The position numbers were made by a program, and so were the translations under genes. This document shows, piece by piece, positions 6,763 to 26,989 of a DNA stretch of 64,000 bases. Under the pieces are notes generated by a model. It had not been told where the DNA came from, did not search any database, and saw only the letters and a list, made by a program, of their open reading frames with translations. Numbering within the stretch: position 1 is the stretch's first letter; each line of letters begins with the position of its first letter. The stretch comes from Acidithiobacillus marinus (GTDB lineage: Bacteria > Pseudomonadota > Gammaproteobacteria > Acidithiobacillales > Acidithiobacillaceae). The stretch lies in NCBI RefSeq assembly GCF_002847505.1, contig NZ_MXAV01000033.1, positions 1-64,000 of the forward strand, read 5' to 3'.

Positions 6763-8697
6763 TCAGTGATGCTTGCGATACCGCATATACCAGTCCACCA
6801 GCAGGCGCACCTGTTTTTCCGTGTAGCCTTTGCGGGTCATGCGCGCCACAAAATCCTGATGCTTGCGTTCATCATCGGAAGAGCTTTTTTTGCCGAAGGA
6901 AATCACCGGCAGGAGATCTTCGGTGTTGGCGAACATTTTTTTCTCGATGACGGCGCGCAATTTTTCATAGCTCGTCCAGGAGGGGCTGATACCGTCATTG
7001 GAGGCTTTCACCCGCAACACAAAATTGACGACTTCATTGCGAAAGTCCTTGGGATTGGCAATGCCTGCCGGCTTTTCGATTTTTTCCAGTTCCTCATTCA
7101 GTAGGCTGCGGTCCATCAACTGGCCGGTATCCGGATCCCGGAATTCCGTATCCTGCAACCAGAAATCGGCATACTGAATGTAGCGATCAAAGAGGTTCTG
7201 GCCGTAATCGCCATAACTTTCGAGGTAGGCCTTTTGAATTTCCAGACCCAGGAATTCGGCATAACGGGGTGCCAGTTCGGTTTTCAGAAAGGCCAGGTAA
7301 TGGGATTCGGTTTCTGCCGGGAACTGCTCGGCACGAATCTGGGTTTCGAGCACATGCAGCAGATGCACGGGATTGGCGGCTACTTCATCACTGTCAAAAT
7401 TGAAGGTACGCGACATGATTTTGTAGGCAAAACGGGTGGAAATCCCATCCATGCCTTCATCCACACCGGCAGCATCCCGGTATTCCTGCAGACTTTTGGC
7501 CTTGGGGTCCTTGTCTTTCAGGGATTTGCCGTCATAAATTTCCATTTTCGACCAGAGACTGCTGTTGCCGGGCTCCTTGAGGCGGCTGAGTACCGAAAAA
7601 CGCGCCAGCATGTCCAGGGTGTCGGGGGCGCAAGGCGCGGCGCTCAGGGCGCTGCTCTCCAGCAGTTTGTGGTAAATGCGGGTTTCTTCGCTGACGCGCA
7701 GGCAGTAGGGCACCTTGACGATATAAACGCGGTCAAGAAAGGCTTCATTGCGCTTGTTGTTGCGAAATGCCGCCCATTCCGATTCGTTGCTGTGGGCGAG
7801 AATAATGCCCTGGAAAGGCATGGCACCAAAGCCCTCGGTACCGTTGTAAGTGCCTTCCTGGGTGGCGGTCAGCAGGGGATGCAGCATTTTGATGGGCGCC
7901 TTGAACATTTCCACAAATTCCAGCACCCCCTGGGTGGCGACGTTCAGTCCACCGGCATAGGAATAGGCATCGGGATCATCCTGGGAAAAGTCTTCCAGTT
8001 TGCGAATATCGACTTTACCCACCAAGCTGGAGATGTCCTGGTTATTCTCATCGCCGGGCTCTACCTTGGTGATGCCGATTTGGTGCAGTTGTGAGGGCAT
8101 CAGACGCTGCACCGTGAATTTGCGGATATCGCCGCCGAATTCACGCAGCCGTTTGGCCGCCCAGGGAGACATGACGCCGCTGAGGGCGCGGCGGGAAATG
8201 CCGTAACGATCTTCCAGTACCGGGCCGTCTTCGTCACGATCAAACAGACCGAGGGGTGACTCGTAGAGGGGGGATACCTTGCCGTTGGCGGCCAGGCAAT
8301 AGATGGGATAGTGCTCCATCAGGGTTTTCAGCCGTTCGGCCAGAGAGGACTTGGCGGCCCCCACCGGACCCAACAGGTAGAGGATCTGCTTGCGTTCTTC
8401 CAGCCCCTGGGCGGCATGACGGAAGTAGGCCACCAGATTTTCGACCACATCTTCGATGCCGTAAAAATCCTTGAAGGCAGGATAAGTGAGGAGTTTACGA
8501 TTCATGAATATGCGCGACAGACGGGGATCGGCCTGGGTATCGAGCACTTGCGGCTCGCCAATGGCGGCCAGCATGCGTTCTGCAGCGCTGGCGTAGGCCA
8601 TGGGTTCTTTTGCGCAGAGGTTCAGATAAGCATCCAAAGAGAGGGTAACTTCCTGCTGCTGCAGGAAACGCTCCTGATAACGGTCAAATAAAGCCAT
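6763..8697 (-). CDS. prkA: PrkA/YeaG family serine protein kinase
   Basis: 644 residues from ATG 8697 (MALFDRYQERFLQQQEVTLS), with AAGGAG 7 nt upstream; this equals the length of E. coli YeaG. An N-terminal AAA-like PrkA domain carries the P-loop GPVGAAKSSLAERL. A C-terminal kinase-like domain ends in VRLLVDWYMRYRKHH. PrkA/YeaG kinases act in starvation and stationary-phase adaptation and are usually encoded with yeaH and spoVR. Here those partners lie downstream, beyond an interposed ammonium transporter. A sigma-54 promoter at 8797-8813 and NtrC-type dyads at 8883-8921 indicate direct nitrogen control. A hairpin terminator follows the gene. Confidence 0.96.
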   Translation of the reverse strand: MALFDRYQERFLQQQEVTLSLDAYLNLCAKEPMAYASAAERMLAAIGEPQVLDTQADPRLSRIFMNRKLLTYPAFKDFYGIEDVVENLVAYFRHAAQGLEERKQILYLLGPVGAAKSSLAERLKTLMEHYPIYCLAANGKVSPLYESPLGLFDRDEDGPVLEDRYGISRRALSGVMSPWAAKRLREFGGDIRKFTVQRLMPSQLHQIGITKVEPGDENNQDISSLVGKVDIRKLEDFSQDDPDAYSYAGGLNVATQGVLEFVEMFKAPIKMLHPLLTATQEGTYNGTEGFGAMPFQGIILAHSNESEWAAFRNNKRNEAFLDRVYIVKVPYCLRVSEETRIYHKLLESSALSAAPCAPDTLDMLARFSVLSRLKEPGNSSLWSKMEIYDGKSLKDKDPKAKSLQEYRDAAGVDEGMDGISTRFAYKIMSRTFNFDSDEVAANPVHLLHVLETQIRAEQFPAETESHYLAFLKTELAPRYAEFLGLEIQKAYLESYGDYGQNLFDRYIQYADFWLQDTEFRDPDTGQLMDRSLLNEELEKIEKPAGIANPKDFRNEVVNFVLRVKASNDGISPSWTSYEKLRAVIEKKMFANTEDLLPVISFGKKSSSDDERKHQDFVARMTRKGYTEKQVRLLVDWYMRYRKHH

Positions 8698-8796: not shown

Positions 8797-8813
8797 AGCA
8801 TTTCCTATGCCAA
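8797..8813 (-). promoter_or_regulatory. Sigma-54 promoter of prkA
   Basis: The minus strand reads TTGGCATAGGAAATGCT, with -24 GG and -12 GC exactly 12 bases apart. Predicted transcription start is near 8786, giving a leader of about 90 nt to the prkA start codon. NtrC-type dyads lie about 105-127 bp further upstream. Confidence 0.85.
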
Positions 8814-8882: not shown

Positions 8883-8921
8883 TGCCCGTCCATAGTGCGC
8901 TTTATGCACAATTATGGTGCA
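8883..8921. promoter_or_regulatory. NtrC-type enhancer sites upstream of prkA
   Basis: TGCACAATTATGGTGCA (8905-8921) is a near-perfect NtrC dyad. A weaker neighbour, TGCCCGTCCATAGTGCG, occupies 8883-8899, with centres about 22 bp apart. Both are at enhancer distance from the prkA sigma-54 promoter and could also act on the divergently placed small-RNA promoter region. Confidence 0.78.
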
Positions 8922-9059
8922 TGGCGCGGGCTTGCGCCAGTCCAATTTGTGACAGAAGACCGGTCTGCAGAGTGACCTGATTCGAAAATGAATGGGTTTT
9001 TATTCGATGTTTTATCAGGATGTTACCAGAAAATGAGAACGCTTGGGTGATTGAGATAT

Positions 9060-9084
9060 AAAAAAAGGGCGGGAGGACCGCCCT
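9060..9084 (-). terminator. Intrinsic terminator of the predicted small RNA
   Basis: The minus strand has a perfect stem AGGGCGG / CCGCCCT with a 4-nt loop followed by seven T residues. No protein gene ends just upstream of it, which is why a short non-coding transcript is proposed. Confidence 0.85.
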
Positions 9085-9124
9085 GGAAGCCACTTGAGGA
9101 GGAGTGATCAGATGACCATGATCA
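9060..9124 (-). ncRNA. Predicted sigma-54-dependent small RNA, about 65 nt
   Basis: A sigma-54 promoter at 9135-9150 (minus) points at a short interval with no protein frame, ending in a strong intrinsic terminator (9060-9084). The predicted RNA begins at or next to a 5' hairpin (arms TGATCA and TGATCA, 8-nt loop). This is followed by an unpaired CTCCTCCTC tract complementary to Shine-Dalgarno sequences, then a short linker and the terminator hairpin AGGGCGG/CCGCCCT with a run of seven T. Promoter, start, 5' stem and terminator fit together without gaps. Nitrogen-regulated sigma-54 sRNAs are known in other bacteria (NrsZ of Pseudomonas), but I recognise no homology to it. Its targets are unknown. 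No clear NtrC dyad lies directly upstream of its promoter. Confidence 0.6.
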
Positions 9125-9134
9125 GTATCTATTA

Positions 9135-9150
9135 AGCAGGAAGCGTGCCA
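9135..9150 (-). promoter_or_regulatory. Sigma-54 promoter of the predicted small RNA
   Basis: The minus strand reads TGGCACGCTTCCTGCT: a perfect TGGCACG -24 element and CTGCT at -12 with correct spacing, one mismatch to consensus. The expected start falls at about 9124, directly at the 5' stem of the predicted RNA. Confidence 0.75.
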
Positions 9151-9278
9151 TATTTTTGCTCTGCTGCGAGCCAGTGTGATCATGGCATAGCCCTTGCTGG
9201 ACTGTTGGGGGTGTCATGAGGCAATTGGTCGGATCGTCCTCGCTACGTTTAAGCCACGAAACCGTTTGGGGGTGGATC

Positions 9279-10094
9279 ATGAATCGCTTTGAGCATTTTC
9301 GGGAGCTGCGCAAGGATCTTTCCACATTGTTGGGTGGCGTCGTCGAGGCCTTGGCCAGCCCGACTCTTTTGCAGCAGTCTCCCGAAGAACAGCGCAAAAA
9401 ACTGCGTTGCCTGATTAGCCGCCACCCATTTCTCGACTTATGTTATCTCCTGGATGCCCATGGGCGGCAGCTGGGCGATAATGTGGGTGCCTCTCGGCGG
9501 CGGGGGATAGCCCAGGATGGAGGCGATGGTGCCGATCGCAGTCATCGGCCCTATTATCGGCTTGCCCTGAACGCCTTGTCGCCAGTGCTGACCGAACCAT
9601 ATTTATCTTCAGCCAATGGTCACATTTGCGTCACGGCGGCGGTACCCATTCGCGATGAAAAGGGTCTGCTGTTGGGTATGCTGGTGGCAGACAGTGAGCT
9701 GGACAGAGCCTTGGCGCTTCTTGAAGAAGATGACATCCGACGTGGTTTCGAGCCCTATTTCAAGGCCATTTATACGCTTTTTTCGGGAGGCTTGTTGGCA
9801 GTGAGTGCGGCTTTGGGGTTTCACGCAATCGTGACCTTAAAGCAGGTCTGGTCAGCTATGGCGGCTCCGGGCGATTTTGCCGCGCCTTTCCAGGCGACAA
9901 TCCTGTTCACTCTGGCGCTGGCCGTTTTTGATCTGTCCAAAAGCATTTTTGAAGAGGAGGTGCTGTTGCGCAAGGATATCCGCCGCCATAGCACCACGCG
10001 TCGTACTTTGACGCGATTTATAGCAGCCATCCTGATTGCCGTATCTATCGAGGGTTTGATGCTGGTATTCAAATTCGCCCTGGACAGCATATAG
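9279..10094 (+). CDS. PDC/Cache-sensor membrane protein, apparently truncated at its C-terminus
   Basis: 271 residues from ATG 9279 (MNRFEHFRELRKDLSTLLGG); an in-frame start at 9216 is possible but has no better signal. A PDC/Cache-like sensor region (about residues 40-160, with RPYYRLAL and ICVTAAVPIRDEKGLLLGML) is followed by membrane helices near 170-195, 208-225 and 250-268. The protein stops abruptly after EGLMLVFKFALDSI. The same peptide EGLMLVFKFALD reappears at 17134 and there continues into a further hydrophobic helix, so I infer the original gene was split by the 10.08-17.13 kb island. No output domain is visible. Ligand unknown. Confidence 0.8.
   Translation: MNRFEHFRELRKDLSTLLGGVVEALASPTLLQQSPEEQRKKLRCLISRHPFLDLCYLLDAHGRQLGDNVGASRRRGIAQDGGDGADRSHRPYYRLALNALSPVLTEPYLSSANGHICVTAAVPIRDEKGLLLGMLVADSELDRALALLEEDDIRRGFEPYFKAIYTLFSGGLLAVSAALGFHAIVTLKQVWSAMAAPGDFAAPFQATILFTLALAVFDLSKSIFEEEVLLRKDIRRHSTTRRTLTRFIAAILIAVSIEGLMLVFKFALDSI
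10050..10081 (+). repeat. 32-bp direct repeat, left copy
   Basis: Identical over 32 bp to 17134-17165. It encodes EGLMLVFKFA in both copies and brackets the 7-kb island. Sequence beyond the repeat differs at once on both sides apart from synonymous changes in the next two codons (CTGGAC here, CTAGAT in the right copy). Confidence 0.95.
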
Positions 10095-10326
10095 CCGGTA
10101 CTGGAGTTGGCGTGAGGATGGTAGACATGGGATGGTGCCAGGATTCGCAAGCCAGCGAAAACCAGCTCCGCGGGGGTATCGATCAATCGAATGTGTGCCT
10201 GATGAGGATCATCTTCCATTCCACCCCTCCACCTACCAGAAATGCCCAAAGTTATTGGCTGCTTGCACCAAGCGGATACGTTCTCTACACTTTTCACGGT
10301 CCGCCAGAGAAGCCAGAAGGAGCCCC

Positions 10327-13300
10327 ATGCGCTCGGAACCGCAAAGCCTGCCCGATGATAGCCGTGAAATCCGGGTTTTTCTATCCTCGACCTTCAAGGA
10401 CATGGACGAGGAGCGCAACATCCTGATGCAGCGGGTCTTTCCCGAGCTGCGTCGGCTCTGCTCCGAGCGGGCCGTGGCCCTGACCGAGATCGACCTGCGC
10501 TGGGGGGTCACCGAGGAGGCCTCCAAAAATGGCCAGACCGTGGAAATCTGCTTGCAGGAAATCGACCACTGCCGCAAGTTCCCACCCTTTTTCATCGGTT
10601 TTCTGGGTGAGCGCTACGGCTGGGTTCCCCAGCACGGTGAATTGCAGGCCTACTGGGAGAAGCACTCCGACTCCCCCTATGCCCATCGCATCCAACAGGC
10701 CCTGGAGCAAGGCATCAGCGTCACCGAACTGGAAATGCGCTACGGCATCTGGGAAGGCGGCGTGGGCGTTGAGAATGCTTGGGTCTTCCTGCGCGCCCCC
10801 GACTTGACCCAGACGCTGGCCGACGGACATCCGCACGACGATTTTTACGACGATGGCGGCGGCAAGCTCCAGGCTTTCAAAGCGCAGTTACGTAAGCAGC
10901 CCGGTCTGCTGGCCGTCGATGGCTACAGCAGCGTCGAAGCCTTTGCCGACGCCGTCCAGGCGGCCTTGCTCCAGGCCATCGACCAGCGCTATCCCAAGGC
11001 GCAGACCCCATCAATCCAGCAGATATGCGACCGGGCCCACTGCGCCTATGCGCAGAGCCGCCTGCGCGCCTATGTGCCCGACCCGCAGATCGATCAGCGG
11101 ATCAAGACCAACCTCCAGGATCAGGCCAATGCCCCGGCAACGGCGCGCCGCCTGCATGTCAGCGGCGCTTCGGGGCTGGGCAAGAGCGCGCTGCTGGCGC
11201 ATACGGCACAAGCCCTACGCGAGCAAGGCTACTGGGTGCATGAACATTATGTGGGCGCCGATGGCGACCGGAGCCTGGCCGGCTGGCGCGAACGCCTGCG
11301 CGGGGCCTTGCCGGGTACTACTGAAACTGAAATACAGACACAAGACACACAGCAGCAAGACCCCTGGGCAGCCCTGGACCAAGCCCTGGAAAAAGCACAG
11401 AGCCAACTCCAACAACCCATGCTCCTGCTGCTCGACGCCCTGGATCAGTTGCACGAACCTGACAAGGCTCTGGTCATACTTGCCCAGCGTATCCTGCCGC
11501 CGCAGGTTTTCCTGCTGCACAGCGCCACGCCCGACCTGGTGCTTTCGCTGCCGGAACCGCAGCGGATTGAACTACAGCCTCTGGATGCCCAACGGCGGCA
11601 GGAAGCCATTACCCGTTTCCTGACGCAGACCTACCGCAAGTCGCTGGAAGAGCGGCAAGGTCAGCGCCTGAGTCAGGCCGAGGCCTGCGGCAATCCGCTC
11701 TTTCTGCGCCTGCTTCTGGAAGAACTGCGCCTGCACGCTCGTTTCGAGACCCTGGATCAGGAGATCGAGGCCCTGTTGGCCAGCGGCACGGTGGATCGGC
11801 TTTTCGCCCAGGTGCTTGCTGCCATGGATCGGGATTTCGCGGACAGCGGACACGCCCATCTGGCCCGGGAGCTGGTCACCTACCTGACCCTTTCCTATCG
11901 GGGTCTGCACAAGAATGATCTGGCCGTGCTGCTGGGTAGCAAGACGACCCGTCTGGCCGATGCCCAACTGATTCCCCTGCTGGCGCGTCTGGAGCCCTAT
12001 CTCTTGCAGGACGCCGGCCGCCTGCGCCTGCTGCATGCCGCCCTGCGCGAACCGCTGGAACAAGGCCTGAACGCCGATGAAGCGGCAACGCAGGACCTGC
12101 GTAGGCGGATGATGGTACGCCTCGACGGCGAGACCATCGACCAGCGCATCGAGCGCATCCACCAGGCTATCGAACTCGGCGACCAGACTCTGCTCCTGGG
12201 TGGAGCGGGGCTCGCCTCGCTGAAAGCAGCCGTCTCCCTGCAGAAGGAAACACCGGAGCTGCTCATCACCGCCCTGCGCCTCCTGGGCGGTGGTCAACAT
12301 CAGTTGCCGGAAGCGGTCACACAACTGGCCCAAGGCTGGGCCGGGCAAACAGAAGATGCCGAGGCTGCTGACGCAGCCAACAGTCTGGCATTTCTTTTCC
12401 ATAGCCAAGGGCTTTACGCCTTGGCTGAACCGCTCTACCAGCGCGCCCTCGCCATCAGCGAAAAAGTCCTCGGCCCCGAGCATCCCGACACCGCCGCCAG
12501 CCTCAACAACCTGGCCATGCTGTACGATGCCCAAGGCCGCCTGAACGAGGCCGAACCGCTCTACCAGCGCGCCCTGGCGATCTGGGAAAAAGTCCTCGGC
12601 CCCGAGTATCCCAATACCGCCACCAGCCTCAACAACCTGGCATCGCTGTACCAGGACCAAGGCCGCCTGAACGAGGCCGAACCGCTCTACCAGCGCGCCT
12701 TGGCCATCCGCGAAAGAGTCCTCGGCCCCGAGCATCCTGACACCGCCAGCAGCCTCAACAACCTGGCCTTGCTGTACAAGGCTCAGGGCCGCCTGAACGA
12801 GGCCGAACCGCTCTACCAGCGCGCCCTGGCGATCTGGGAAAAAGTCCTCGGCCCCGAGCATCCTGACACCGCCACCAGCCTCAACAACCTGGCATCGCTG
12901 TACAAAGCCCAAGGCCGCCTGAACGAGGCTGAACCGCTCTTGCAGCGCGCCCTGGCGATCTGGGAAAAAGTCCTCGGCCCCGAGCATCCCGACACCGCCG
13001 CCAGCCTCAACAGCCTGGCCGGGCTGTACCAGGACCAAGGCCGCCTGGACGAGGCTGAACCGCTCTACCAGCGCGCCCTGGCGATCTGCGAAAAAGTCTT
13101 TGGACCCGAGCATCCTGACACCGCCAGCAGCCTCAACAGCCTGGCCGGGCTGTACCAGGACCAAGGCCGCCTGGACGAGGCCGAGCCGCTCTACCAGCGC
13201 GCCCTCGCCATCCGTGAAAAAGTCTTTGGACCCGAGCATCCTGACACCGCCACCAGCCTCAACAACCTGGCATTGCTGTACCAGGACCAAGGCCGCCTGA

Positions 13301-14172
13301 ACGAGGCTGAACCACTCTACCAGCGCGACCTCGCCATCAGCGAAAAAGTCCTCGGCCCCGAGCATCCTGACACCGCCACCAGCCTCAACAACCTGGCTGC
13401 GCTGTACAAAGCCCAAGGCCGCTTGGCCGAGGCTGAACCACTCTACCAGCGCGCCCTGGCGATCCGCGAAAAAGTCCTCGGCCCCGAGCATCCTGACACC
13501 GCCACCAGCCTCAACAACCTGGCCATGCTGTACCAGGCCCAAGGCCGCCTGAACGAGGCTGAACCGCTCTACCAGCGCGCCCTGGCGATCTGGGAAAAAG
13601 TCCTCGGCCCCGAGCATCCCAATACCGCCAGCAGCCTCAACAACCTGGCATTGCTGTACCAGGTCCAAGGCCGCCTGAACGAGGCTGAACCACTCTACCA
13701 GCGCGCCCTGGCGATCTGGGAAAAAGTCCTCGGCCCCGAGCATCCCAATACCGCCACCAGCCTCAACAACCTGGCTGCGCTGTACGATGCCCAAGGCCGC
13801 CTGAACGAGGCCGAACCTCTCTTACAGCGATCCCTGGCTATCTCGGAAAAGGCCCTCGGCCCCGAGCATCCCAATACCGCCACCAGCCTCAACAACCTGG
13901 CTGCGCTGTACGATGCCCAAGGCCGCCTGAACGAGGCTGAACCGCTCTACCAGCGCGCCCTGGCCATCAGCGAAAAAGTCCTCGGCCCCGAGCATCCTGA
14001 CACCGCCACCAGCCTCAACAACCTGGCATTGCTGTATCTGTCCATGAAAAAAATCGACCAGGCCCTCCCCCTGCTGAAACGAGCGCGAGAAATTTTTGCT
14101 CTCTACCCGGAAACGGCGGCGCAAGCAGAGCAGGTACAGGCGTGGATTGAGCAAATTCGGCAGCAACAGTAG
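10327..14172 (+). CDS. DUF4062-STAND NTPase with 13 tandem TPR units
   Basis: 1281 residues from ATG 10327, chosen because AAGGAG lies 4-9 nt upstream; the open frame back to 10132 is not conserved-looking. An N-terminal DUF4062 domain (about 14-110: IRVFLSSTFKDMDEERN, FFIGFLGERYGWVP) of the Nephrocystin-3 type is followed by a NACHT/STAND-like NTPase with Walker A GASGLGKS (about 281-288) and Walker B LLLLDALDQL (about 366-375). The C-terminus has 13 TPR units of 42 residues (about 699-1244) of the form EAEPLYQRALAIxEKVLGPE. STAND proteins with such sensors act as signal-triggered switches, often in immunity. It is followed directly by the SLOG-SLATT gene, suggesting one operon. Function is inferred, not known. 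Confidence 0.88.
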   Translation: MRSEPQSLPDDSREIRVFLSSTFKDMDEERNILMQRVFPELRRLCSERAVALTEIDLRWGVTEEASKNGQTVEICLQEIDHCRKFPPFFIGFLGERYGWVPQHGELQAYWEKHSDSPYAHRIQQALEQGISVTELEMRYGIWEGGVGVENAWVFLRAPDLTQTLADGHPHDDFYDDGGGKLQAFKAQLRKQPGLLAVDGYSSVEAFADAVQAALLQAIDQRYPKAQTPSIQQICDRAHCAYAQSRLRAYVPDPQIDQRIKTNLQDQANAPATARRLHVSGASGLGKSALLAHTAQALREQGYWVHEHYVGADGDRSLAGWRERLRGALPGTTETEIQTQDTQQQDPWAALDQALEKAQSQLQQPMLLLLDALDQLHEPDKALVILAQRILPPQVFLLHSATPDLVLSLPEPQRIELQPLDAQRRQEAITRFLTQTYRKSLEERQGQRLSQAEACGNPLFLRLLLEELRLHARFETLDQEIEALLASGTVDRLFAQVLAAMDRDFADSGHAHLARELVTYLTLSYRGLHKNDLAVLLGSKTTRLADAQLIPLLARLEPYLLQDAGRLRLLHAALREPLEQGLNADEAATQDLRRRMMVRLDGETIDQRIERIHQAIELGDQTLLLGGAGLASLKAAVSLQKETPELLITALRLLGGGQHQLPEAVTQLAQGWAGQTEDAEAADAANSLAFLFHSQGLYALAEPLYQRALAISEKVLGPEHPDTAASLNNLAMLYDAQGRLNEAEPLYQRALAIWEKVLGPEYPNTATSLNNLASLYQDQGRLNEAEPLYQRALAIRERVLGPEHPDTASSLNNLALLYKAQGRLNEAEPLYQRALAIWEKVLGPEHPDTATSLNNLASLYKAQGRLNEAEPLLQRALAIWEKVLGPEHPDTAASLNSLAGLYQDQGRLDEAEPLYQRALAICEKVFGPEHPDTASSLNSLAGLYQDQGRLDEAEPLYQRALAIREKVFGPEHPDTATSLNNLALLYQDQGRLNEAEPLYQRDLAISEKVLGPEHPDTATSLNNLAALYKAQGRLAEAEPLYQRALAIREKVLGPEHPDTATSLNNLAMLYQAQGRLNEAEPLYQRALAIWEKVLGPEHPNTASSLNNLALLYQVQGRLNEAEPLYQRALAIWEKVLGPEHPNTATSLNNLAALYDAQGRLNEAEPLLQRSLAISEKALGPEHPNTATSLNNLAALYDAQGRLNEAEPLYQRALAISEKVLGPEHPDTATSLNNLALLYLSMKKIDQALPLLKRAREIFALYPETAAQAEQVQAWIEQIRQQQ
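12421..14058 (+). repeat. Tandem 126-bp repeats (13 TPR units)
   Basis: Thirteen consecutive 126-bp units, each encoding one 42-residue TPR-type repeat, are highly similar at the DNA level; long identical stretches such as GAACCGCTCTACCAGCGCGC recur. The variation is concentrated at a few residues (position after ALAI: S/W/R/C; LY-D/Q/K-A/D-QGR). This implies recent expansion or homogenisation and makes copy number prone to change and assembly error. Confidence 0.95.
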
Positions 14173-17165: not shown

Positions 17166-17313
17166 AGATGCACCGCAGAACCTCTGGTTGGCGGTATTGC
17201 TGTTGGTAGCTGCCGCCATGTTGCTGGTCTCTCTGGGTTTGTATGTGTATTTGGGGGGGCAAGCAGAAGTGCTGCTATCACGGCATCGTGATCAGCGCCA
17301 CGATGCCGGCTAG
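17134..17313 (+). pseudogene. C-terminal fragment of the split PDC-sensor membrane protein
   Basis: The frame reads EGLMLVFKFALDAPQNLWLA and then a hydrophobic helix (VLLLVAAAMLLVSLGLYVYL) and a short charged tail ending RHDAG. It lacks any sensible start. Joined to the end of the gene at 9279-10094 through the shared 32 bp it would rebuild a protein of about 315 residues with one more membrane helix. It overlaps the 3' end of the transglutaminase gene on the other strand by 4 bp. Confidence 0.75.
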
Positions 17314-20300
17314 GGTGTGGGTTTTAGGGGCCGCGCCATGCGCAGATCCAGGGTATGGGGATAGTCGGGCTGCTCCTCATCATAAGGGGACTGCCAGGGA
17401 TATTCGCCACTGCCTCTGGCCACAAAGCGGCCCTCGCTGGGTGAAGTCATGCTGCCCATGATATTGCGGACAACGGGTTCAGGCTCTGGCTGACTATGTC
17501 CCGTAATTGTAAAGCGGGACTGACGGCGGGCTTCGGCTTCCCAGGCATTGACCGGAAAAATCTCGGAATTGCGGCCACCCGGGTGCATGACATGGTAAGT
17601 ACAGCCGCCAATACTACGATTGTTCCAGGTGTCGATCAGATCAAAAGTCAAAGGGGTATGTACCGGAATGGTCGGATGCAGGGCGGAAGGCGGTTGCCAG
17701 GCCCGGTAGCGCACGCCGGCCACCTGGGTATCCGCAGCGCGGGTGCCCTGCAGAGGGACGCGCCGCCCATTACAGGCAAGTACATGGCGTCCCGGAGTCA
17801 TCCCGGTCACTTTGACCTGCAGACGTTCGATGGAAGAATCCACATAGCGGGCAGTGCCGCTGCCGGTGACCTCTTCGCCCAGCACATGCCAGGGTTCGAT
17901 GGCGGCGCGCAATTCTATCTGAACATCGCCAATGCGCACATGACCATGTTCCGGAAAGCGAAATTCCGCAAAGGGAGCGAGCCATTCCAGTTGAAAAAGA
18001 ATGCCATGGTTCTGCAGATCCGCACAGACTTCGCGGAGGTCTTCCCAGACATAATGGGGCAGCATGAAGCGATCATGCAGGTTGGTTCCCCAGCGAATCA
18101 GGGCATGGCGGTAGGGGTCTTCCCAGAAGCGTAAAATCAGACTGCGGACGAGCAATTGTTGGACCAGACTCATGCGGGCGTGGGGCGGCATTTCAAAGGC
18201 GCGCAGTTCTACCAGGCCCTGCCGTCCAGCGGATCCCGTCGGGGAGTAGAGCTTGTCGATGCAGATCTCGGCGCGATGGGTGTTGCCGGTGATGTCCACC
18301 AGCAGGTTGCGAAACAGACGATCCACCAGCCAGGGTTGGACGACCGCGCCCGGCGGCACCTGACTGAAGGCAATTTCCAGCTCATACAGGGATTCGTGAC
18401 GGGCCTCATCCACGCGCGGTGACTGGCTGGTGGGGCCGATAAACATGCCGCTGAAAAAATAGGACAGCGCCGGGTGATGCTGCCAGTAAGTAATCAGACT
18501 TTGCAGTAGATCGGGGCGCCGCAGAAAAGGGCTGTCAGCGGGAGTGGCGCCACCCAGGGTCATGTGATTGCCACCACCGGTACCGGTATGGCGACCATCG
18601 AGCATGAATTTTTCGGCGGTCAGGCGGCAGGCGTGGGCCTCCTCGTAGAGGAGGGTGGTTTTCTCCACCATTTCGGACCAAGCAGACGAGGGGTGGATAT
18701 TTACCTCGATCACCCCGGGGTCGGGAGTGACCAGGAGTTTTTCCAGGCGGGGATCGCTGGGCGGCGCATAACCTTCAATGACCACCGGCATGTTCAGGAT
18801 ACGGGCCGTGCTTTCGACAGCGTTGAGTAGGTCCAGATAGTTTTCGGTGACCTGGAGGGGCGGAAAAAAACAGTACAGGCAACCCTTGCGGACTTCCATG
18901 GTCAGCGCTGTGTGGGGGATTTCCTCCCAACTGGGGGTTTTGGGGGGCGTGCTGGTGGCGGTCTGGCTGTCAGTGCGGCGCTCGACCGGAAAATCGGGTA
19001 AGGGCGGCAAGGGGGCAAAGGGATCGGTTTCCGGCTGCCATTTTTTGTGGGGGTCCACCATCCACGGCAGGCTATCCAGAGGCAGCCGCATACCCAAAGC
19101 CGAGTCACCGGGAATCAGTACCAGGCGGCCGCTACGAAACACCCAGGTCGCCGAATACCAGCACCGGGCATTCCACTCCCAGGCCAGGGGCAGCACCCAG
19201 CCTACCGGGTGCTCAAGGCCCGCCTGGAGTTTTTCGATCAGTGCTTGCCGCTCCAGGGGGTCGTCGAGGCGATGGGTACTGAGATCAATATTGACCGGCA
19301 CCCGTCCCTCCTGATGCAATACATGCCAGGCATCTTCGTAAGCCGGAATGAGCCGGGCGCTGTCCACCTGCAACTGCCGGATCAACTCGCAGGCAAACTG
19401 GTGCAGGTCTTCGTCCGTCCAGCCATAATCCTGGAGGGGGTCTGCCAGTAAATCGGGCTGATGCCAGATCGGCAATCCGTCCTTGCGCCAGTACACACCC
19501 AGCGCCCACCTCGGCAGAGGCTCACCCGGATACCATTTTCCCTCGCCGGTATGGCGCAGTGCGCCCCGGGCGAAATGCTGGCTGAGCTTTTCGGTAAGGA
19601 TTTCAGCGCGTTCTCTTTTGTGGCGGCCCAGGGCCTCCAGATTCCACTGTGGGTCGTCCACGGCTTCGGTGGCGACAAAAGTAGGTTCTCCGCCCATGGT
19701 CAGGCGCACATCGGCGGCGTTGAGGCGGTCATCGACAATCCGCCCGAGGACCATGACTTCTTCCCACTGGCTTTCAGTATAGGGTTTGGTGACCCGGGGT
19801 ATTTCCGGCAGGCGGGTGACCTGATTGGAAAAATGAAATTCCACTTCGCATTTTCCGGTGGCACCGCTGATGGGGGCGGCACTCTGATAATGGGGGGTGC
19901 AGGCCAGGGGAATATGTCCTTCACTGGCAAAAAGGCCGGAGGTTGGATCCATGCCAATCCAACCGGCACCCGGAATATACACTTCCACCCAGGCATGGAG
20001 ATCAGTGAAATCCTGGACGGGACCGGAAGGCCCTTCCAGAGGCGTCTGATCGGCTACCAACTGAACCAGATAGCCGGAAACAAAGCGGGCCGCCAGACCC
20101 AGATGGCGTAATAACTGTACCAGCAGCCAAGCACTGTCCCGACAGGAACCGCTGGCTTTTTTCAGGGTTTCTTCCGGGGTCTGGACGCCGACTTCCATGC
20201 GCAGTGTGTATTGAATGGCCCGCTGCAACTGCTGGTTGATGCTGACCAGAAAATCGATGGTACGTGCCTTGCGCTTCATGATGTCCAGCAACAGCTTTTG

Positions 20301-20681
20301 CAGTAAACGCCCGGCGCGTTCTTTTTCCAGATAGGGCGTCAATTCTTTATACAGTGCGGCGTCGTAGCGGAAGGGCCAGCGCTCGGCCTGAGGTTCAATA
20401 AAAAAGTCGAAAGGATCAATCACGCTGAGATCGGCGATGACTTCGACATTGAAGTGCAAGGACCGGGCGCGTTCCGGAAATACCAGACGGGCCTGATAAT
20501 TGCCGAAGGGATCCTGTTGCCAGTTGAGAAAATGCTTTTCGGGGCTGACTTCCAGGGAATAAGCGAGAATCGGGGTACGGCAATGGGGTGCCGGGCGCAG
20601 GCGCAGCACGTGAGGATGAATTTCTACTAGCTGATCGAAGTCGTACTCGGTCTGATGACGCAGAACGACATGAATGCCCAT
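17310..20681 (-). CDS. Transglutaminase-like / DUF2126 protein (Anbu-cluster)
   Basis: 1123 residues. ATG 20681 is preferred (GAGG 9 nt upstream); a TTG two codons earlier is possible. The N-terminal part has a bacterial transglutaminase N-domain (about 1-110), then a transglutaminase-like cysteine-protease core with Cys in GSCRDSAWLL (about 180), His in DLHAWVEVYIPG (about 228) and Asp in GMDPTSGL (about 245). The remaining 700 residues are the DUF2126 domain. Proteins of this family are encoded with alpha-E, circularly permuted ATP-grasp and Anbu genes and are predicted to hydrolyse or transfer amide bonds in small peptides. It ends a three-gene operon driven by the sigma-54 promoter at 23264-23279. 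Confidence 0.93.
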   Translation of the reverse strand: MGIHVVLRHQTEYDFDQLVEIHPHVLRLRPAPHCRTPILAYSLEVSPEKHFLNWQQDPFGNYQARLVFPERARSLHFNVEVIADLSVIDPFDFFIEPQAERWPFRYDAALYKELTPYLEKERAGRLLQKLLLDIMKRKARTIDFLVSINQQLQRAIQYTLRMEVGVQTPEETLKKASGSCRDSAWLLVQLLRHLGLAARFVSGYLVQLVADQTPLEGPSGPVQDFTDLHAWVEVYIPGAGWIGMDPTSGLFASEGHIPLACTPHYQSAAPISGATGKCEVEFHFSNQVTRLPEIPRVTKPYTESQWEEVMVLGRIVDDRLNAADVRLTMGGEPTFVATEAVDDPQWNLEALGRHKRERAEILTEKLSQHFARGALRHTGEGKWYPGEPLPRWALGVYWRKDGLPIWHQPDLLADPLQDYGWTDEDLHQFACELIRQLQVDSARLIPAYEDAWHVLHQEGRVPVNIDLSTHRLDDPLERQALIEKLQAGLEHPVGWVLPLAWEWNARCWYSATWVFRSGRLVLIPGDSALGMRLPLDSLPWMVDPHKKWQPETDPFAPLPPLPDFPVERRTDSQTATSTPPKTPSWEEIPHTALTMEVRKGCLYCFFPPLQVTENYLDLLNAVESTARILNMPVVIEGYAPPSDPRLEKLLVTPDPGVIEVNIHPSSAWSEMVEKTTLLYEEAHACRLTAEKFMLDGRHTGTGGGNHMTLGGATPADSPFLRRPDLLQSLITYWQHHPALSYFFSGMFIGPTSQSPRVDEARHESLYELEIAFSQVPPGAVVQPWLVDRLFRNLLVDITGNTHRAEICIDKLYSPTGSAGRQGLVELRAFEMPPHARMSLVQQLLVRSLILRFWEDPYRHALIRWGTNLHDRFMLPHYVWEDLREVCADLQNHGILFQLEWLAPFAEFRFPEHGHVRIGDVQIELRAAIEPWHVLGEEVTGSGTARYVDSSIERLQVKVTGMTPGRHVLACNGRRVPLQGTRAADTQVAGVRYRAWQPPSALHPTIPVHTPLTFDLIDTWNNRSIGGCTYHVMHPGGRNSEIFPVNAWEAEARRQSRFTITGHSQPEPEPVVRNIMGSMTSPSEGRFVARGSGEYPWQSPYDEEQPDYPHTLDLRMARPLKPTP

Positions 20682-20716
20682 ATGCAATTTCCTCGGCAGT
20701 GAAAAGGGTGTGGCGT

Positions 20717-21703
20717 TTAGGCCTCAGCTATCTGCAACTGAATACCATTGAGCAGACTTTCCGAAGCGCTGTCTCCTCTGGCGAAATAAATACCCTGGAT
20801 GGTCCGGTGCACGACGGCCAGATCGCGCTGGGCCTGATCCAGATATTCGTGCAGGAGATCTGGACGCAGATCAGTCAATTTGAGGTTATCCAGACGCCGC
20901 CGTGCCCGGCGCACCGCCTCGGCGGGCGTGCCAGCATTGGGCAGATAGGCCAGGGCCACTTCCATCTCGCCCAGGCAATACTTCATGCTGCGCGGAAATT
21001 TGCTGTCCTTGAGCAGGTAATCTACCACCTGATTACTGCGCACCTGGACGGATATGTGGCGGCGATACATTTCAAAAGCACTCAAGGATTTGAGCACCCC
21101 GATCCACAGGCTGCTCCCGGCAGTTTTTTGCAAACCCTGATCCTGGGGTAAAATCACCGCGCTGGTGACATCGACAATGCGCGTGGTCATGTCGGCTCTT
21201 TCCATGTTGCGGCCCAGTTTGATCAACTGGTAAACATTATCCTGACTCATGCTGCTGATCAGTAATCCGACCAGCGCATGGCGGCGGGCAATCACCTCGT
21301 TGAGGAAGGCATAGCGGGCATGGCGGCTGTCGGCGCCGGAAACGGCTTGATCCCGGACATACAGAAAGAGGGTATTGAGGCGCTCCCAGAATTCTCCGGG
21401 AAGGAGGTCACGAAAAGTGCGACAGTTTTCCCGGGCCTGGTGGATGGCCGCCATGACCGAGTTCGGATTGCGCTCATCAGCAATCAGAAAGCGCATGATG
21501 CGGTTTTCTTCCGGGGTGCCATAAAGCTCGGCATAGAGTTGCGCGTCGCCGGTGACCTGCAAGAGGATATCCCAACCAAAATAAGCGCCTGGCGGCAGAT
21601 CCAGCAACATCAGGGTGGTGGCATTGATCAGGCGGGCCATATCTTCGGTGCGCTCCAGATAGCGCGCCATCCAGTACAGATTTTCGGCTACTCGGGAAAG
21701 CAT
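20717..21703 (-). CDS. Alpha-E domain protein
   Basis: 328 residues starting MLSRVAENLYWMARYLERTEDMARL, the signature opening of the alpha-E family (DUF403), entirely alpha-helical. The biochemical role is not established. In comparative genomics it travels with the circularly permuted ATP-grasp enzyme and is thought to act with it in making a peptide-like product. Its start overlaps the ATP-grasp stop by 16 bp and its stop is 35 bp before the transglutaminase gene, so all three are surely co-transcribed. Length is normal for the family. Confidence 0.94.
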   Translation of the reverse strand: MLSRVAENLYWMARYLERTEDMARLINATTLMLLDLPPGAYFGWDILLQVTGDAQLYAELYGTPEENRIMRFLIADERNPNSVMAAIHQARENCRTFRDLLPGEFWERLNTLFLYVRDQAVSGADSRHARYAFLNEVIARRHALVGLLISSMSQDNVYQLIKLGRNMERADMTTRIVDVTSAVILPQDQGLQKTAGSSLWIGVLKSLSAFEMYRRHISVQVRSNQVVDYLLKDSKFPRSMKYCLGEMEVALAYLPNAGTPAEAVRRARRRLDNLKLTDLRPDLLHEYLDQAQRDLAVVHRTIQGIYFARGDSASESLLNGIQLQIAEA

Positions 21704-23151
21704 GGGGCCTCCTCATCGACAATCCAGGTGTCCTTGCTGCCCCCTCCCTGGGAGCTGTTGACCACCAGTGACCCCGGCTGCATCGCCACCCGGGTCAGTC
21801 CACCCGTGGTCACGTACATTTTGTCCGCTTGCAGAATAAAAGGACGCAGGTCCAGATGGCGGGCCTCCAGATGATCGTCCACCAGCGTCGGTGCGGTGGA
21901 AATATTCAGAGTGGGCTGGGCAATATAGTTGCGCGGATTGGCCCGGATCAGTTCGGCAAAACGATCGCGCTCGGCCTGACTGGCCCGGGGGCCGATCAAC
22001 ATGCCATAGCCCCCGGATTCATTGGCGGGTTTGACCACCAGTTCGGCCAGATGATTGAGCACATAATCCCGATCCGCATCACGCATGCACAGGTAGGTCG
22101 GCACATTGGGGATGATGGGTTCAGCGTCCAGATAATAACGGATAATTTCCGGAACAAAAGCATAAACCACCTTGTCGTCCGCGACCCCGGCACCGGGGGC
22201 GTTGGCAATAGCCACATTGCCCCGCCGCCAGGCTCGCAACAGACCGGGAATCCCCAGCGCTGAATCGGGGAAAAACACTTCCGGGTCCAGATAATCATCA
22301 TCAATCCGGCGGTAAATGACGTCTACCCGTTGCAAACCGGAAATGGTGCGCAGGTACACAATATCTTCCTTGCTGACATAAAAATCAGCGCCTTCGGCCA
22401 GATAGGCCCCCATCTGCTGCGCCAGATAACTATGTTCGAAATAGGCAGAATTATAGATGCCGGGGGTCAGTACGGCGATTACCGGTTTTTCGTCCGGTCG
22501 CGGTGAAAGGGCGGCAAGGGTTTCGTAAAGGCGGTTCGGATAGTCATCCACCGGTCGGATGATGGATGACTTGAAAAGCTCCGGAAACAGCCGCTTCATG
22601 ATCTGTCGATTTTCGAGCATGTAGGATACGCCTGAAGGAACGCGCAGATTATCTTCCAGGACATAAACCGTACCGTCGGCATCGCGCACCAGGTCACTCC
22701 CGCAAATGTGTGCCCATACGCCGAAGGGGGGATGCACGCCCCGGCAGGCCTCGCGGAAATTGCGTGAGCCTGTCAGTACTTCCGCCGGAAAAACACCATC
22801 AGCGACAATGCGTTGTTCATTGTAAAGATCGTCAATGAAAAGATTGAGCGCCTGCAGTCGCTGTTTGAGACCCTCTTCGATTTTGGACCATTCGGTGCTG
22901 GATAGAATTCTGGGAATGATGTCAAAAGGCCAGGCGCGATCAATGTTGCCCGCCTCGCTATATACCGTAAACGTGATGCCCATGGCGAGAATAGAGGCAT
23001 CGGCGGCCTGGCGACGCGCCTGTAATTCGCTGCTGTCGAGAGTGTTCAGGTAATCAAATAATGGAGCCGCCGCCCGCCGTGGTCCAGCGTTGGCATCTAC
23101 TAGTTCGTCATAAGTGATCTGCTGCTGATAATGGGTTTTAAGCCAGTCCAT
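21688..23151 (-). CDS. Circularly permuted ATP-grasp protein (predicted amidoligase)
   Basis: 487 residues from ATG 23151 (MDWLKTHYQQQITYDELVDA), supported by CGAGGAG 8 nt upstream. The frame extends to 23400 but would start before or at the predicted sigma-54 transcript start (about 23253), so those upstream starts are rejected. Typical family motifs include GVHPPFGVWAHICGSDLVRD, YVLEDNLRVPSGVSYMLENR, APGAGVADDK and VVKPANESGGYGMLIG (nucleotide-binding loop). Family members are predicted to ligate amino acids into peptides or tags. First gene of the ATP-grasp/alpha-E/transglutaminase operon, under apparent NtrC/sigma-54 control. Confidence 0.94.
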   Translation of the reverse strand: MDWLKTHYQQQITYDELVDANAGPRRAAAPLFDYLNTLDSSELQARRQAADASILAMGITFTVYSEAGNIDRAWPFDIIPRILSSTEWSKIEEGLKQRLQALNLFIDDLYNEQRIVADGVFPAEVLTGSRNFREACRGVHPPFGVWAHICGSDLVRDADGTVYVLEDNLRVPSGVSYMLENRQIMKRLFPELFKSSIIRPVDDYPNRLYETLAALSPRPDEKPVIAVLTPGIYNSAYFEHSYLAQQMGAYLAEGADFYVSKEDIVYLRTISGLQRVDVIYRRIDDDYLDPEVFFPDSALGIPGLLRAWRRGNVAIANAPGAGVADDKVVYAFVPEIIRYYLDAEPIIPNVPTYLCMRDADRDYVLNHLAELVVKPANESGGYGMLIGPRASQAERDRFAELIRANPRNYIAQPTLNISTAPTLVDDHLEARHLDLRPFILQADKMYVTTGGLTRVAMQPGSLVVNSSQGGGSKDTWIVDEEAPCFPE

Positions 23152-23263
23152 CTGCTTTTCTCCTCGTCGCAAGATTCTCGCCCGGAACTCTGAAGCCTGG
23201 GTGGGCAGTGGCGTATCCCGTAAGAGAGATACTTGGTCTGCCATGATCTTCGCTCGTAATGAA

Positions 23264-23279
23264 AGCAAAGCCTGTGCCA
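23264..23279 (-). promoter_or_regulatory. Sigma-54 promoter of the ATP-grasp/alpha-E/transglutaminase operon
   Basis: The minus strand reads TGGCACAGGCTTTGCT, a near-perfect -24/-12 sigma-54 promoter. Transcription would start near 23253, about 100 nt before the chosen ATP-grasp start codon. Two NtrC-type dyads lie about 140-160 bp upstream. Confidence 0.85.
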
Positions 23280-23382
23280 TGCAGGCGGATAAGTAAAAAT
23301 TCAGGCAGAAGGATATTTTCCAGACCTGGAAGGTGGAAAATATCTGCAAATAATAATCGCGTGATGATAAGGAATAATGAAT

Positions 23383-23420
23383 TGTATCATATTGGTGCAT
23401 GGCGCACCATCATGGTGCGC
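23383..23420. promoter_or_regulatory. Two NtrC-type enhancer sites between anbu and the ATP-grasp gene
   Basis: GCGCACCATCATGGTGCGC (23402-23420) is a perfect dyad of the NtrC type, and TGTATCATATTGGTGCA (23383-23399) is a weaker one. Their centres are 20 bp apart, the same spacing as the pair at 2073-2109. They serve the sigma-54 promoter at 23264-23279. Confidence 0.82.
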
Positions 23421-23434
23421 TTTTCTTGCTGCAC

Positions 23435-24298: not shown

Positions 24299-24315
24299 TG
24301 CACTATTATGGTGCG
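24299..24315. promoter_or_regulatory. NtrC-type enhancer site between anbu and ntrB
   Basis: TGCACTATTATGGTGCG matches the 17-bp NtrC dyad closely. It lies about 150 bp upstream of the predicted sigma-54 start of ntrBC and about 115 bp upstream of the anbu start codon, so NtrC may control both (autoregulation on one side). Confidence 0.78.
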
Positions 24316-24445: not shown

Positions 24446-24497
24446 TTGAAAAATTTTGATGAGAGCCCCTAAAGGCGCATACCCACTTGGAGCTTGC

Positions 24498-25583
24498 ATG
24501 GCGCAGCACAAAAACACCAAAACCTCGTTGTCAGAAAATACGGTGCTGGATGCGTTGGAGTCGGCAGTCCTGACTCTGGATGCTCGGCAACAATTGCGTT
24601 TCATGAATCCGGCCGCAGAAAATCTCCTGCGTGTCAGCCAGCATCAGGCGCGCGGACAAAGCGTGCCAGCCCTCTGCAGCATCATCGGCGAGGATCGCTT
24701 TGCGGTACTTTTTGCCGATGCGCTGGAGTTGAATGGCACGATCCTGAGGCGGGCATTGCCCTTGCAATTACATGATGGCGGCCATGCCGTGGTGGACCTG
24801 GTCGTGACTCCTCTGGCGGAAGGACAACTAATTGTAGAAATGCGGCCCATGGAATTACCGGCCCGTCATGCCGAAGAAGAAATGCAGGAACGGATTTATG
24901 CTGCGGCCCAGGAAATGCTGCGGGGGCTCGCTCATGAAATCAAAAATCCGCTGGGCGGTTTGCGAGGTGCCACCCAGCTTCTCGACCGGGAATTGCAGCG
25001 CCCGGAATTGAAGGACTACACGAGAGTAATACTTCATGAGGTGGATCGTCTGCATCATTTGGTGGATCGTCTGCAGGGTCCGCGCACCCGTCCGATTTTT
25101 GCCGAAGTCAACATTCACCAGGTGCTGGAGCATGTCCGCCGCCTTCTCCAGGCCGAATTGCCTACGGGAATCTCGCTGCGTTTTGATTATGACCTTTCTA
25201 TTCCGGAAATTTACGCCGATCAGGAGCAATTAGTGCAGGTTTTCCTCAATTTGATGCGTAACGCCCAGCAAGCCCTGGACCGTCATGGCACGATTCTCAT
25301 CCGTACCCGGGTGGATCGTTACGTCACCTTGCTCCATCAAAAGTTCCGTCTCGCTTTGCGGGTGGACATTATCGATAGTGGCCCAGGTATTCCGGCGGAC
25401 CTGCTGCCCCGCATCTTCCTCCCGCTGGTCACCAGTCGGGCCGAAGGCATGGGCATGGGGCTGGCCATCGCCCAGGGCCTGATACGTGGACATGGAGGGG
25501 TGGTGCACTGTCACTCGCGGCCCGGCGAGACGGTATTCTCGGTGTCCCTGCCCCTCACCCAGCAACGGGAGGCCGCCCAATGA
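24498..25583 (+). CDS. ntrB: Nitrogen sensor histidine kinase NtrB
   Basis: 361 residues from ATG 24498 (MAQHKNTKTSLSENTVLDAL), GGAG 6 nt upstream. A PAS domain (about 15-115, LDALESAVLTLDARQQLRFM) precedes the dimerisation/phosphoacceptor helix with His146 in LAHEIKNPLGGLRG. The ATPase domain follows, with the N-box NLMRNAQQAL and G-boxes DSGPGIP and GMGMGLAIAQG. NtrB phosphorylates NtrC under nitrogen limitation and is held in phosphatase mode by PII. Length and order are standard for NtrB (GlnL). The stop overlaps the ntrC start (ATGA), indicating translational coupling. Confidence 0.96.
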   Translation: MAQHKNTKTSLSENTVLDALESAVLTLDARQQLRFMNPAAENLLRVSQHQARGQSVPALCSIIGEDRFAVLFADALELNGTILRRALPLQLHDGGHAVVDLVVTPLAEGQLIVEMRPMELPARHAEEEMQERIYAAAQEMLRGLAHEIKNPLGGLRGATQLLDRELQRPELKDYTRVILHEVDRLHHLVDRLQGPRTRPIFAEVNIHQVLEHVRRLLQAELPTGISLRFDYDLSIPEIYADQEQLVQVFLNLMRNAQQALDRHGTILIRTRVDRYVTLLHQKFRLALRVDIIDSGPGIPADLLPRIFLPLVTSRAEGMGMGLAIAQGLIRGHGGVVHCHSRPGETVFSVSLPLTQQREAAQ

Positions 25584-26989
25584 AACAGGTTTGGATTATT
25601 GACGACGATCCTTCCATTCGCTGGGTCCTCGAAAAAGCGCTGGCCCAGGCGGAAATCCCTTTCCGGAGTTTTGCCGACGCCGATAGTGCCCTGCGTGCGC
25701 TGGGTCGGGATCAACCCGATGCCATCGTCACCGATTTGCGCATGCCGGGCCTGGATGGCCTGGCTTTTCTGAAAGAAGTCCAGGCGCGTTGGCCGCGCTT
25801 GCCGGTTATTGTCATGACGGCACATTCGGATCTGGATAATGCGGTATCTGCTTTTCAAAGCGGCGCTTTCGAGTATCTGCCCAAGCCCTTTGACATGGAT
25901 GAAGCCATCCATCTGGTACGACGGGCTTTGGGCAGTCAGCAGGAAGCCGCCGCCAAGAGCGTGCCGGAAGAGAGTGATCCGACAGAAATGATTGGCGAAG
26001 CGCCCGCCATGCAGGAGGTGTTTCGGGCCATCGGTCGCCTGTCGCGCTCACAAATCAACGTGCTGATTACCGGTGAATCGGGAGCCGGCAAAGAATTGGT
26101 GGCCAGCGCCCTGCATCGCCATAGTCCCCGTGCCAGAGGCCCCTTCATTGCCATCAACACCGCCGCCATTCCCGCAGAATTACTGGAATCCGAGCTGTTT
26201 GGCCATGAAAAGGGGGCCTTTACGGGCGCGGTACAAACCCGCCAGGGACGCTTTGAGCAGGCCTCTGGAGGAACCCTGTTTCTGGATGAAATCGGCGATA
26301 TGCCTGCCGCCCTGCAAACCCGTTTACTCCGGGTCCTCTCCGATGGGACTTTTTATCGGGTTGGAGGACATGCTCCGTTGCGCGCCGATGTCCGGGTGCT
26401 GGCCGCTACCCACCAGAACCTGGAAGCCAAGGTCCAGGATGGGAGTTTTCGTGAAGATCTCTATCATCGTTTGAATGTCATTCATATTCATCTCCCGCCC
26501 CTGCGAGAGCGGCGGGAAGATATCCCGAGACTGGCGCGCCACTTTCTGCGTCACAGTGCCGAACAGCTCGATGTGGAGCGCAAGGTTTTGAGCCCCACGG
26601 CCGAAGCCGCCTTTATGGAATGGCACTGGCCCGGCAATGTGCGGCAGCTCGAAAACGTCTGCCGCTGGATTACCGTCATGGCGCCGACCAGTGAGGTGCA
26701 GGTGACCGATTTGCCGCCGGAAATGAGTGTGGCAGCAGCGCCTGTAGAATCCGCTGAAGCACCGGTTTATCAGGACTGGCGCCTGCAATTGGGGGCCTTG
26801 GTGCGCCAGCGCCTGGCCAGTGGGGAAGAAGCGCTGCTGGATAAAATCCAGCCCCAGTTTGAACGCTGTCTGCTGGAAGCCGCCCTGCAGCATACCCGGG
26901 GTCACAAACAGGATGCTGCCCAGAAACTCGGCTGGGGACGTAACACCTTGACCCGCAAACTGAAAGAACTGGGAATCGAAGAGCGATAA
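25580..26989 (+). CDS. ntrC: Nitrogen regulator NtrC (sigma-54 activator)
   Basis: 469 residues. The receiver domain (1-120) has acidic pocket DDD at 8-10, phosphoacceptor Asp52 in VTDLRMPG and Lys in LPKPFD. The AAA+ domain (about 140-380) has Walker A GESGAGKE, the sigma-54 contact loop GAFTGA and Walker B GGTLFLDEIGD. A Fis-type HTH (HKQDAAQKLGWGRNTLTRKL) ends the protein. Phosphorylated NtrC binds dyads of the TGCAC-N7-GTGCA class and drives sigma-54 promoters, several of which lie in this window. All key residues are present. Confidence 0.97.
   Translation: MKQVWIIDDDPSIRWVLEKALAQAEIPFRSFADADSALRALGRDQPDAIVTDLRMPGLDGLAFLKEVQARWPRLPVIVMTAHSDLDNAVSAFQSGAFEYLPKPFDMDEAIHLVRRALGSQQEAAAKSVPEESDPTEMIGEAPAMQEVFRAIGRLSRSQINVLITGESGAGKELVASALHRHSPRARGPFIAINTAAIPAELLESELFGHEKGAFTGAVQTRQGRFEQASGGTLFLDEIGDMPAALQTRLLRVLSDGTFYRVGGHAPLRADVRVLAATHQNLEAKVQDGSFREDLYHRLNVIHIHLPPLRERREDIPRLARHFLRHSAEQLDVERKVLSPTAEAAFMEWHWPGNVRQLENVCRWITVMAPTSEVQVTDLPPEMSVAAAPVESAEAPVYQDWRLQLGALVRQRLASGEEALLDKIQPQFERCLLEAALQHTRGHKQDAAQKLGWGRNTLTRKLKELGIEER

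Follow-up and report, generated by a model that had tools for sequence, protein, structure and literature searches.

The Qrr sRNAs of Vibrio are transcribed with sigma-54 plus LuxO. The closest known system in control to the locus considered here is NrsZ, described as a processed RNA of ~226 nt that activates rhlA translation under NtrB/C and sigma-54 control (PMC8395346). In design, the closest known systems are the Betaproteobacteria toxic small RNA (RF02278) and Bordetella S17S, which are double-hairpin RNAs of ~60-70 nt (PMC5688073, PMC11722255). Predicted sigma-54 and NtrC sites are given in a 2025 paper on the sigma factors of the class, and the terms 'sRNA' and 'non-coding' do not occur in it (PMC12194929).

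By analyzing a 64,000-nt stretch of Acidithiobacillus marinus DNA (the window) and its relatives, a conserved and so far unlisted predicted sRNA was characterized, which may serve the nitrogen response of these chemolithoautotrophic, partly nitrogen-fixing biomining bacteria. A preceding sequence-only reading had proposed an undescribed sigma-54-type sRNA with an exposed anti-Shine-Dalgarno (anti-SD) tract, and this proposal is supported by conserved promoter and stems. No family in Rfam 15 matches the locus, and no such RNA was described for Acidithiobacillus in the literature search, which found almost no sRNA work on these biomining bacteria; older experimental A. ferrooxidans sRNA work lies outside that search, so that prior detection is possible. 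Its features are as follows:

9135..9150, minus strand: sRNA promoter, a -24/-12 box of the sigma-54 type, TGGCACGCTTCCTGCT, near-consensus, kept in the genus loci and in most sister-genus loci
9060..9124, minus strand: sRNA gene, ~65 nt, with a conservation peak and covariance-model matches
9105..9124, minus strand: 5' hairpin UGAUCA-loop-UGAUCA, seen in pairing across 22 distinct sequences and in folds
9096..9104, minus strand: unpaired anti-SD tract CUCCUCCUC, invariant in alignment A1
9060..9084, minus strand: intrinsic terminator of the sRNA, with its stem replaced in sister genera and pairing kept

Each element was found where it had been proposed. The promoter (TGGCACG-N4-CTGCT) is a near-consensus sigma-54 box, and the predicted +1 at ~9124 is the first base of the first TGATCA arm of the 5' hairpin (arms at 9124-9119 and 9110-9105, minus strand). 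The 9-nt CU tract, reading CTCCTCCTC at 9104-9096 (minus strand), comes next, followed by the terminator stem AGGGCGG/CCGCCCT at 9084-9066 (minus strand) and seven T, the last at 9060, from which the 3' end of the RNA was placed. The claim that this terminator serves no protein gene agrees with the separate, conserved sigma-54 box of the downstream prkA gene (8812-8797). The sRNA promoter has the joint-best sigma-54 score on both strands of the 64 kb (0.6 such boxes expected by chance), as judged by a simple weight matrix whose weights are an approximation of the consensus made for this analysis. This -24/-12 box is conserved and lies at the right distance from the predicted RNA 5' end; both the gene and its sigma-54 promoter class are well supported. 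The terminator and the fold energy (z = -1.84), each taken alone, stand little beyond chance; what marks the locus as a gene is evolutionary evidence. In the window's own sRNA, an alternative fold competes with the 5' hairpin, which is absent from the minimum free energy structure and present in the centroid; in most relatives, the hairpin is the minimum free energy structure. In the predicted ensembles, the mean unpaired probability of the CU tract is 0.66-0.93.

Comparison with relatives provides the main basis for these assignments. A blastn search with 9040-9160 gave matches in 15 of 16 congeneric (Acidithiobacillus) genomes at 87-100% identity, most of them spanning approximately the -24 box to the T run. 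In an alignment of 16 genus members, pairwise identity averages 0.91-0.99 from 9125 to 9066 and drops at both transcript ends to mostly 0.27-0.5 (about 0.4) in the intergenic flanks, except for the neighbouring sigma-54 box and NtrC-type sites. Thus, the promoter and stems are far better conserved than the surrounding intergenic DNA, the opposite of the poor conservation that would have spoken against the sequence-only reading. That reading had also called for a covariance search in relatives; a model built from 19 sequences matched 25 of the 29 family genomes (E < 1e-11), covering all four genera, one sister genus being Igneacidithiobacillus according to named records. Each of these genomes has a single copy, apart from one in which the sRNA is duplicated. 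Of 185 sampled genomes of the class, only the window's own gave a strong match. Among 22 distinct sequences, 97% of cells in the 5' stem are paired despite base changes (one pair changed on both sides, three on one side), as are 90% in the terminator; four pairs in total are changed on both sides in the two stems, and slid-partner controls reduced pairing to 25-66%. These counts are biased towards the structure, because the alignment was fitted to it. Moreover, Igneacidithiobacillus copies form the same terminator hairpin from another stem sequence, and a 5' hairpin is still predicted where the arms differ from the UGAUCA/UGAUCA of the genus, namely GUGACUAC/GUGGUCAC in L038 and GGUAAU/AUUACC in L096. 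The CU tract takes the variant form CCCUCCUC in L105 and L096. In genome G021 (L036 on C2, L038 on C1), the 3' part of the sRNA, the dCache gene and ntrC each occur twice and one sRNA copy has no -24 box, suggesting a partial duplication.

The known systems can now be set beside this locus. It resembles NrsZ as a predicted nitrogen-control sigma-54 sRNA, and the Igneacidithiobacillus copy likewise adjoins ntrBC; the two are set apart by a processed transcript of ~226 nt there and ~65 nt predicted here from the terminator (PMC8395346). With RF02278 and S17S it shares the double hairpin and an open CU-rich tract able to cover ribosome-binding sites, whereas S17S is released from a sigma-A transcript by RNase E (PMC5688073, PMC11722255) and a sigma-54 box is present here. 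The RF02278 covariance model gave no match for the present sRNA (L041) at E values up to 0.1, and it did match L048, L051 and L052; homology of the sRNA to RF02278 was rejected, and the class-level matches L042, L046, L048, L051 and L052 belong to RF02278. The Qrr sRNAs are likewise sigma-54-driven, and some relatives here also carry sibling copies, but the present sRNA is linked to NtrC rather than LuxO, differs in core sequence and has no Rfam match. By analogy, it may work like NrsZ and the Betaproteobacteria anti-SD sRNAs, being a member of neither group as tested.

The surroundings of the gene point to nitrogen control. The relevant neighbouring features are:

9183..9198, plus strand: divergent sigma-54 box that points towards the dCache gene, TGGCATAGCCCTTGCT, with similarly placed boxes in many relatives
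9279..10094, plus strand: gene for a membrane protein whose dCache/PDC sensor-like domain matches Pfam dCache_1 at E=1.2e-9, short of the curated cutoff; start alternatively 9216
8906..8920, no strand assigned: NtrC-type palindrome GCAC-N7-GTGC, kept in 16/16 genus loci
8797..8812, minus strand: conserved sigma-54 box TGGCATAGGAAATGCT that belongs to the prkA operon and not to the sRNA
6763..8697, minus strand: prkA (PrkA AAA / serine kinase, by Pfam)
24456..26989, plus strand: ntrB-ntrC, probably encoding the activator pair; a GCAC-N7-GTGC site lies at 24300
2074: NtrC palindrome, with sigma-54 box 2011 facing the porin gene
6648: NtrC palindrome, with sigma-54 box 6584 facing amtB
8906: NtrC palindrome, with sigma-54 box 8812 facing prkA
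23404: NtrC palindrome, with sigma-54 box 23279 facing the ATP-grasp operon

The window, which also encodes amtB, a DUF444 (yeaH-type) gene, spoVR and a BBP2 porin, contains seven GCAC-N7-GTGC sites against 1.6 expected, a number reached in 0 of 100 shuffles, and several of these palindromes lie 60-125 bp upstream of sigma-54 boxes. The sRNA is ~16 kb from ntrBC in the window and adjoins the dCache gene in most relatives examined. In Igneacidithiobacillus genome G022, where the order is glnA, ntrC, ntrB, sRNA, dCache gene, the sRNA immediately precedes ntrB-ntrC, and the interval that separates it from ntrB holds a palindrome and one more sigma-54 box. No NtrC site was found 80-150 bp before the sRNA start, the customary distance. 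For the sRNA promoter as well as for the divergent box at 9183, the nearest NtrC-type site is the 8906 palindrome, which precedes the prkA start by ~127 bp and lies ~210 bp downstream of the point where the sRNA begins; its equivalent lies at +192 to +206 in 16/16 genus loci. Because the closest site is downstream, another sigma-54 activator is possible, and the ntrC model also matches many other activators. Even so, the gene context suggests that the sRNA lies within the NtrC regulon, a setting that is new here.

Two other neighbours were observed. The gene at 10132-14172 (+) encodes a 1346-aa protein with DUF4062, a NACHT-like ATPase and ~13 near-identical tandem TPR repeats, a STAND-type protein by appearance. 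The cluster at 17310-24184 (-), divergent from ntrBC, encodes Transglutaminase/DUF2126, Alpha-E and circularly permuted ATP-grasp proteins and sits behind the sigma-54 box at 23279 and the NtrC-type palindrome at 23404.

The distribution of the sRNA provides a further clue. It is absent from four of the 29 family genomes (G001, G018, G020 and G040). In G001, the sRNA locus is cut off by the end of the contig, which lies ~100 bases before the dCache gene, and the absence is not a true one. The other three, which belong to three genera, show no ntrC-equivalog match above the family cutoff, and their close relatives carrying the sRNA do have ntrC. Two of these genomes are > 90% complete; the absences in G020 are weak because that genome is only 71% complete. 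Conversely, ntrC was seen in 24 of the 25 sRNA-bearing genomes (as partial genes in G013 and G016), the exception being G043, a genome 69% complete. Independent joint absence in three genera offers a natural test case for a tie between the sRNA and this two-component system, and NtrC dependence is strongly suggested by the genomic pattern.

The sequences show the promoter box, the limits of the gene, its structure and conservation, its position in an NtrC regulon and its joint absence with ntrC; transcription, activation by NtrC, use of Hfq, repression and target identity are inferred. The locus probably encodes a trans-acting sRNA, induced by NtrC and sigma-54, that blocks Shine-Dalgarno sequences under nitrogen limitation. 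NtrC phosphorylated under nitrogen limitation would activate sigma-54 RNA polymerase to make a free-standing regulatory RNA of ~65 nt, with the 5' hairpin capping its very start and the U-tailed terminator hairpin capping its end. The unpaired tract CUCCUCCUC would then pair with purine-rich Shine-Dalgarno sequences in several mRNAs, probably with the help of Hfq, and prevent ribosomes from binding. Hfq was present in 8/8 genomes tested, and together with the anatomy it fits a trans-acting repressor of ribosome binding. Testing can now start from a precise locus, size, promoter and condition.

With regard to targets, the best local complementarity to the sRNA was found at the alpha-E, spoVR, prkA, ATP-grasp and yeaH genes. 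The prkA site AGGAGTG is kept in 14/14 loci compared and the spoVR GAGGAG in 11/11. If prkA and spoVR were targets, they would form a feed-forward loop with NtrC. However, an anti-SD tract complements any strong Shine-Dalgarno sequence, so conserved complementarity names no target; of the earlier suggestion that GAGGAG of the ATP-grasp and spoVR genes is targeted, what stands is that the sites exist and are mostly conserved, which ordinary Shine-Dalgarno conservation predicts as well, and neither is established as a target. A search by extended complementarity found 37-60 GAGGAGT-N-ATG sites per Acidithiobacillus genome against 14-24 in the reversed control (genomes listed), and it was set aside since the excess equals ordinary Shine-Dalgarno enrichment; these sites include the starts of groEL, ilvB, nusG, nuoA and metE, none of which stands out. 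The two-part pattern GGAGG-N-ATGACCAT gave no target shared between species except the opposite strand of the sRNA gene itself. RNAduplex energies, which ignore internal structure, were given no weight for targets.

An almost invariant CU tract from which no target has emerged could also belong to a real sigma-54-dependent RNA that acts by protein titration or a general effect on translation rather than on defined mRNAs. UGAUCACUCCUCCU resembles the 3' end of 16S rRNA, GAUCACCUCCU. This explanation seems unlikely, as GAUCA sits in a stem, is lost in L096 and in the second sRNA type described below and is incomplete in L105 while CCUCCUC is kept, and as Hfq and typical sRNA anatomy are present. 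Quite unlikely is an extended form of pairing, in which the sRNA would be antisense to the whole translation-initiation region, with the CU tract on the Shine-Dalgarno sequence and the loop GUCAU on the start codon AUGAC at natural spacing; the 5' hairpin loop does usually keep GUCAU in relatives and across genera. In that case, NtrC would restrain translation broadly and in a start-codon-aware manner when nitrogen is scarce, and relatives would have sibling sRNAs of the same plan. Its location, ahead of prkA in the genus and ahead of ntrB in Igneacidithiobacillus and on the strand of these genes, would also suit a promoter-proximal attenuator or leader of those operons, whose transcript ends at the hairpin unless read through. 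This is very unlikely: prkA has its own conserved sigma-54 box and enhancer-type NtrC palindrome between the terminator and the gene, on which ground the leader was rejected; the RNA is kept while the downstream gene varies between genera; and no upstream ORF or switching partner was seen in the RNA. A translated small plus-strand ORF (ribosome site GAGGAGGAG, then ATGACCATGATC), with an SD-like run and ATG in nearly every copy checked and the usual start MTMI, was rejected as highly improbable, because no conserved product exists among those copies (lengths of 7 to 376 codons, unrelated C-termini, the frame closing at 7 codons in the window species and in the relative closest to it), conservation ends at the -24 box, and the terminator and T run are meaningful only on the minus strand.

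In addition to the predicted sRNA itself, further candidates were detected in relatives. A second sRNA, again with a sigma-54-like box, occurs in six Acidithiobacillus genomes; most copies contain CCTCCTC, every one has a GGGCGG-type terminator, and at the loci examined it is located between a BBP2 porin gene and a dehydrogenase E1-like gene. Another such sRNA lies directly upstream of spoVR in G017. These additional anti-SD sRNAs with sigma-54 boxes suggest that coupling between sRNAs and two-component systems recurs. At the second-sRNA loci (L097, L098, L099, L103, L104 and L039), GGGGCAA-N-TTGCC is conserved ~60 bp before the -24 box and is possibly the binding site of another activator. 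In another order, L056 (G180:C22), a weak match, has a sigma-54 box TGGCACGGCTCCTGCAT, a possible 5' stem, ACTCCTCC and a terminator, and may be regarded as a lead to an sRNA of the same plan; its neighbours encode a branched-chain amino acid-type binding protein and an aminotransferase. Finally, many family genomes contain tandem putative anti-SD sRNAs ~145 bp apart (L088 at G000:C30:7934-8145, L089-L095 and L100), made up of GCGAGCGCATGTTTCTT-CCTCCTTTGGTGG / TTTCCTCCTTTGTGG plus terminator. The pair resembles the RF02278 motif, and L088 and L091 gave no RF02278 match at E up to 0.1. It has no clear sigma-54 box and, in the window's genome, lies near groES-groEL.
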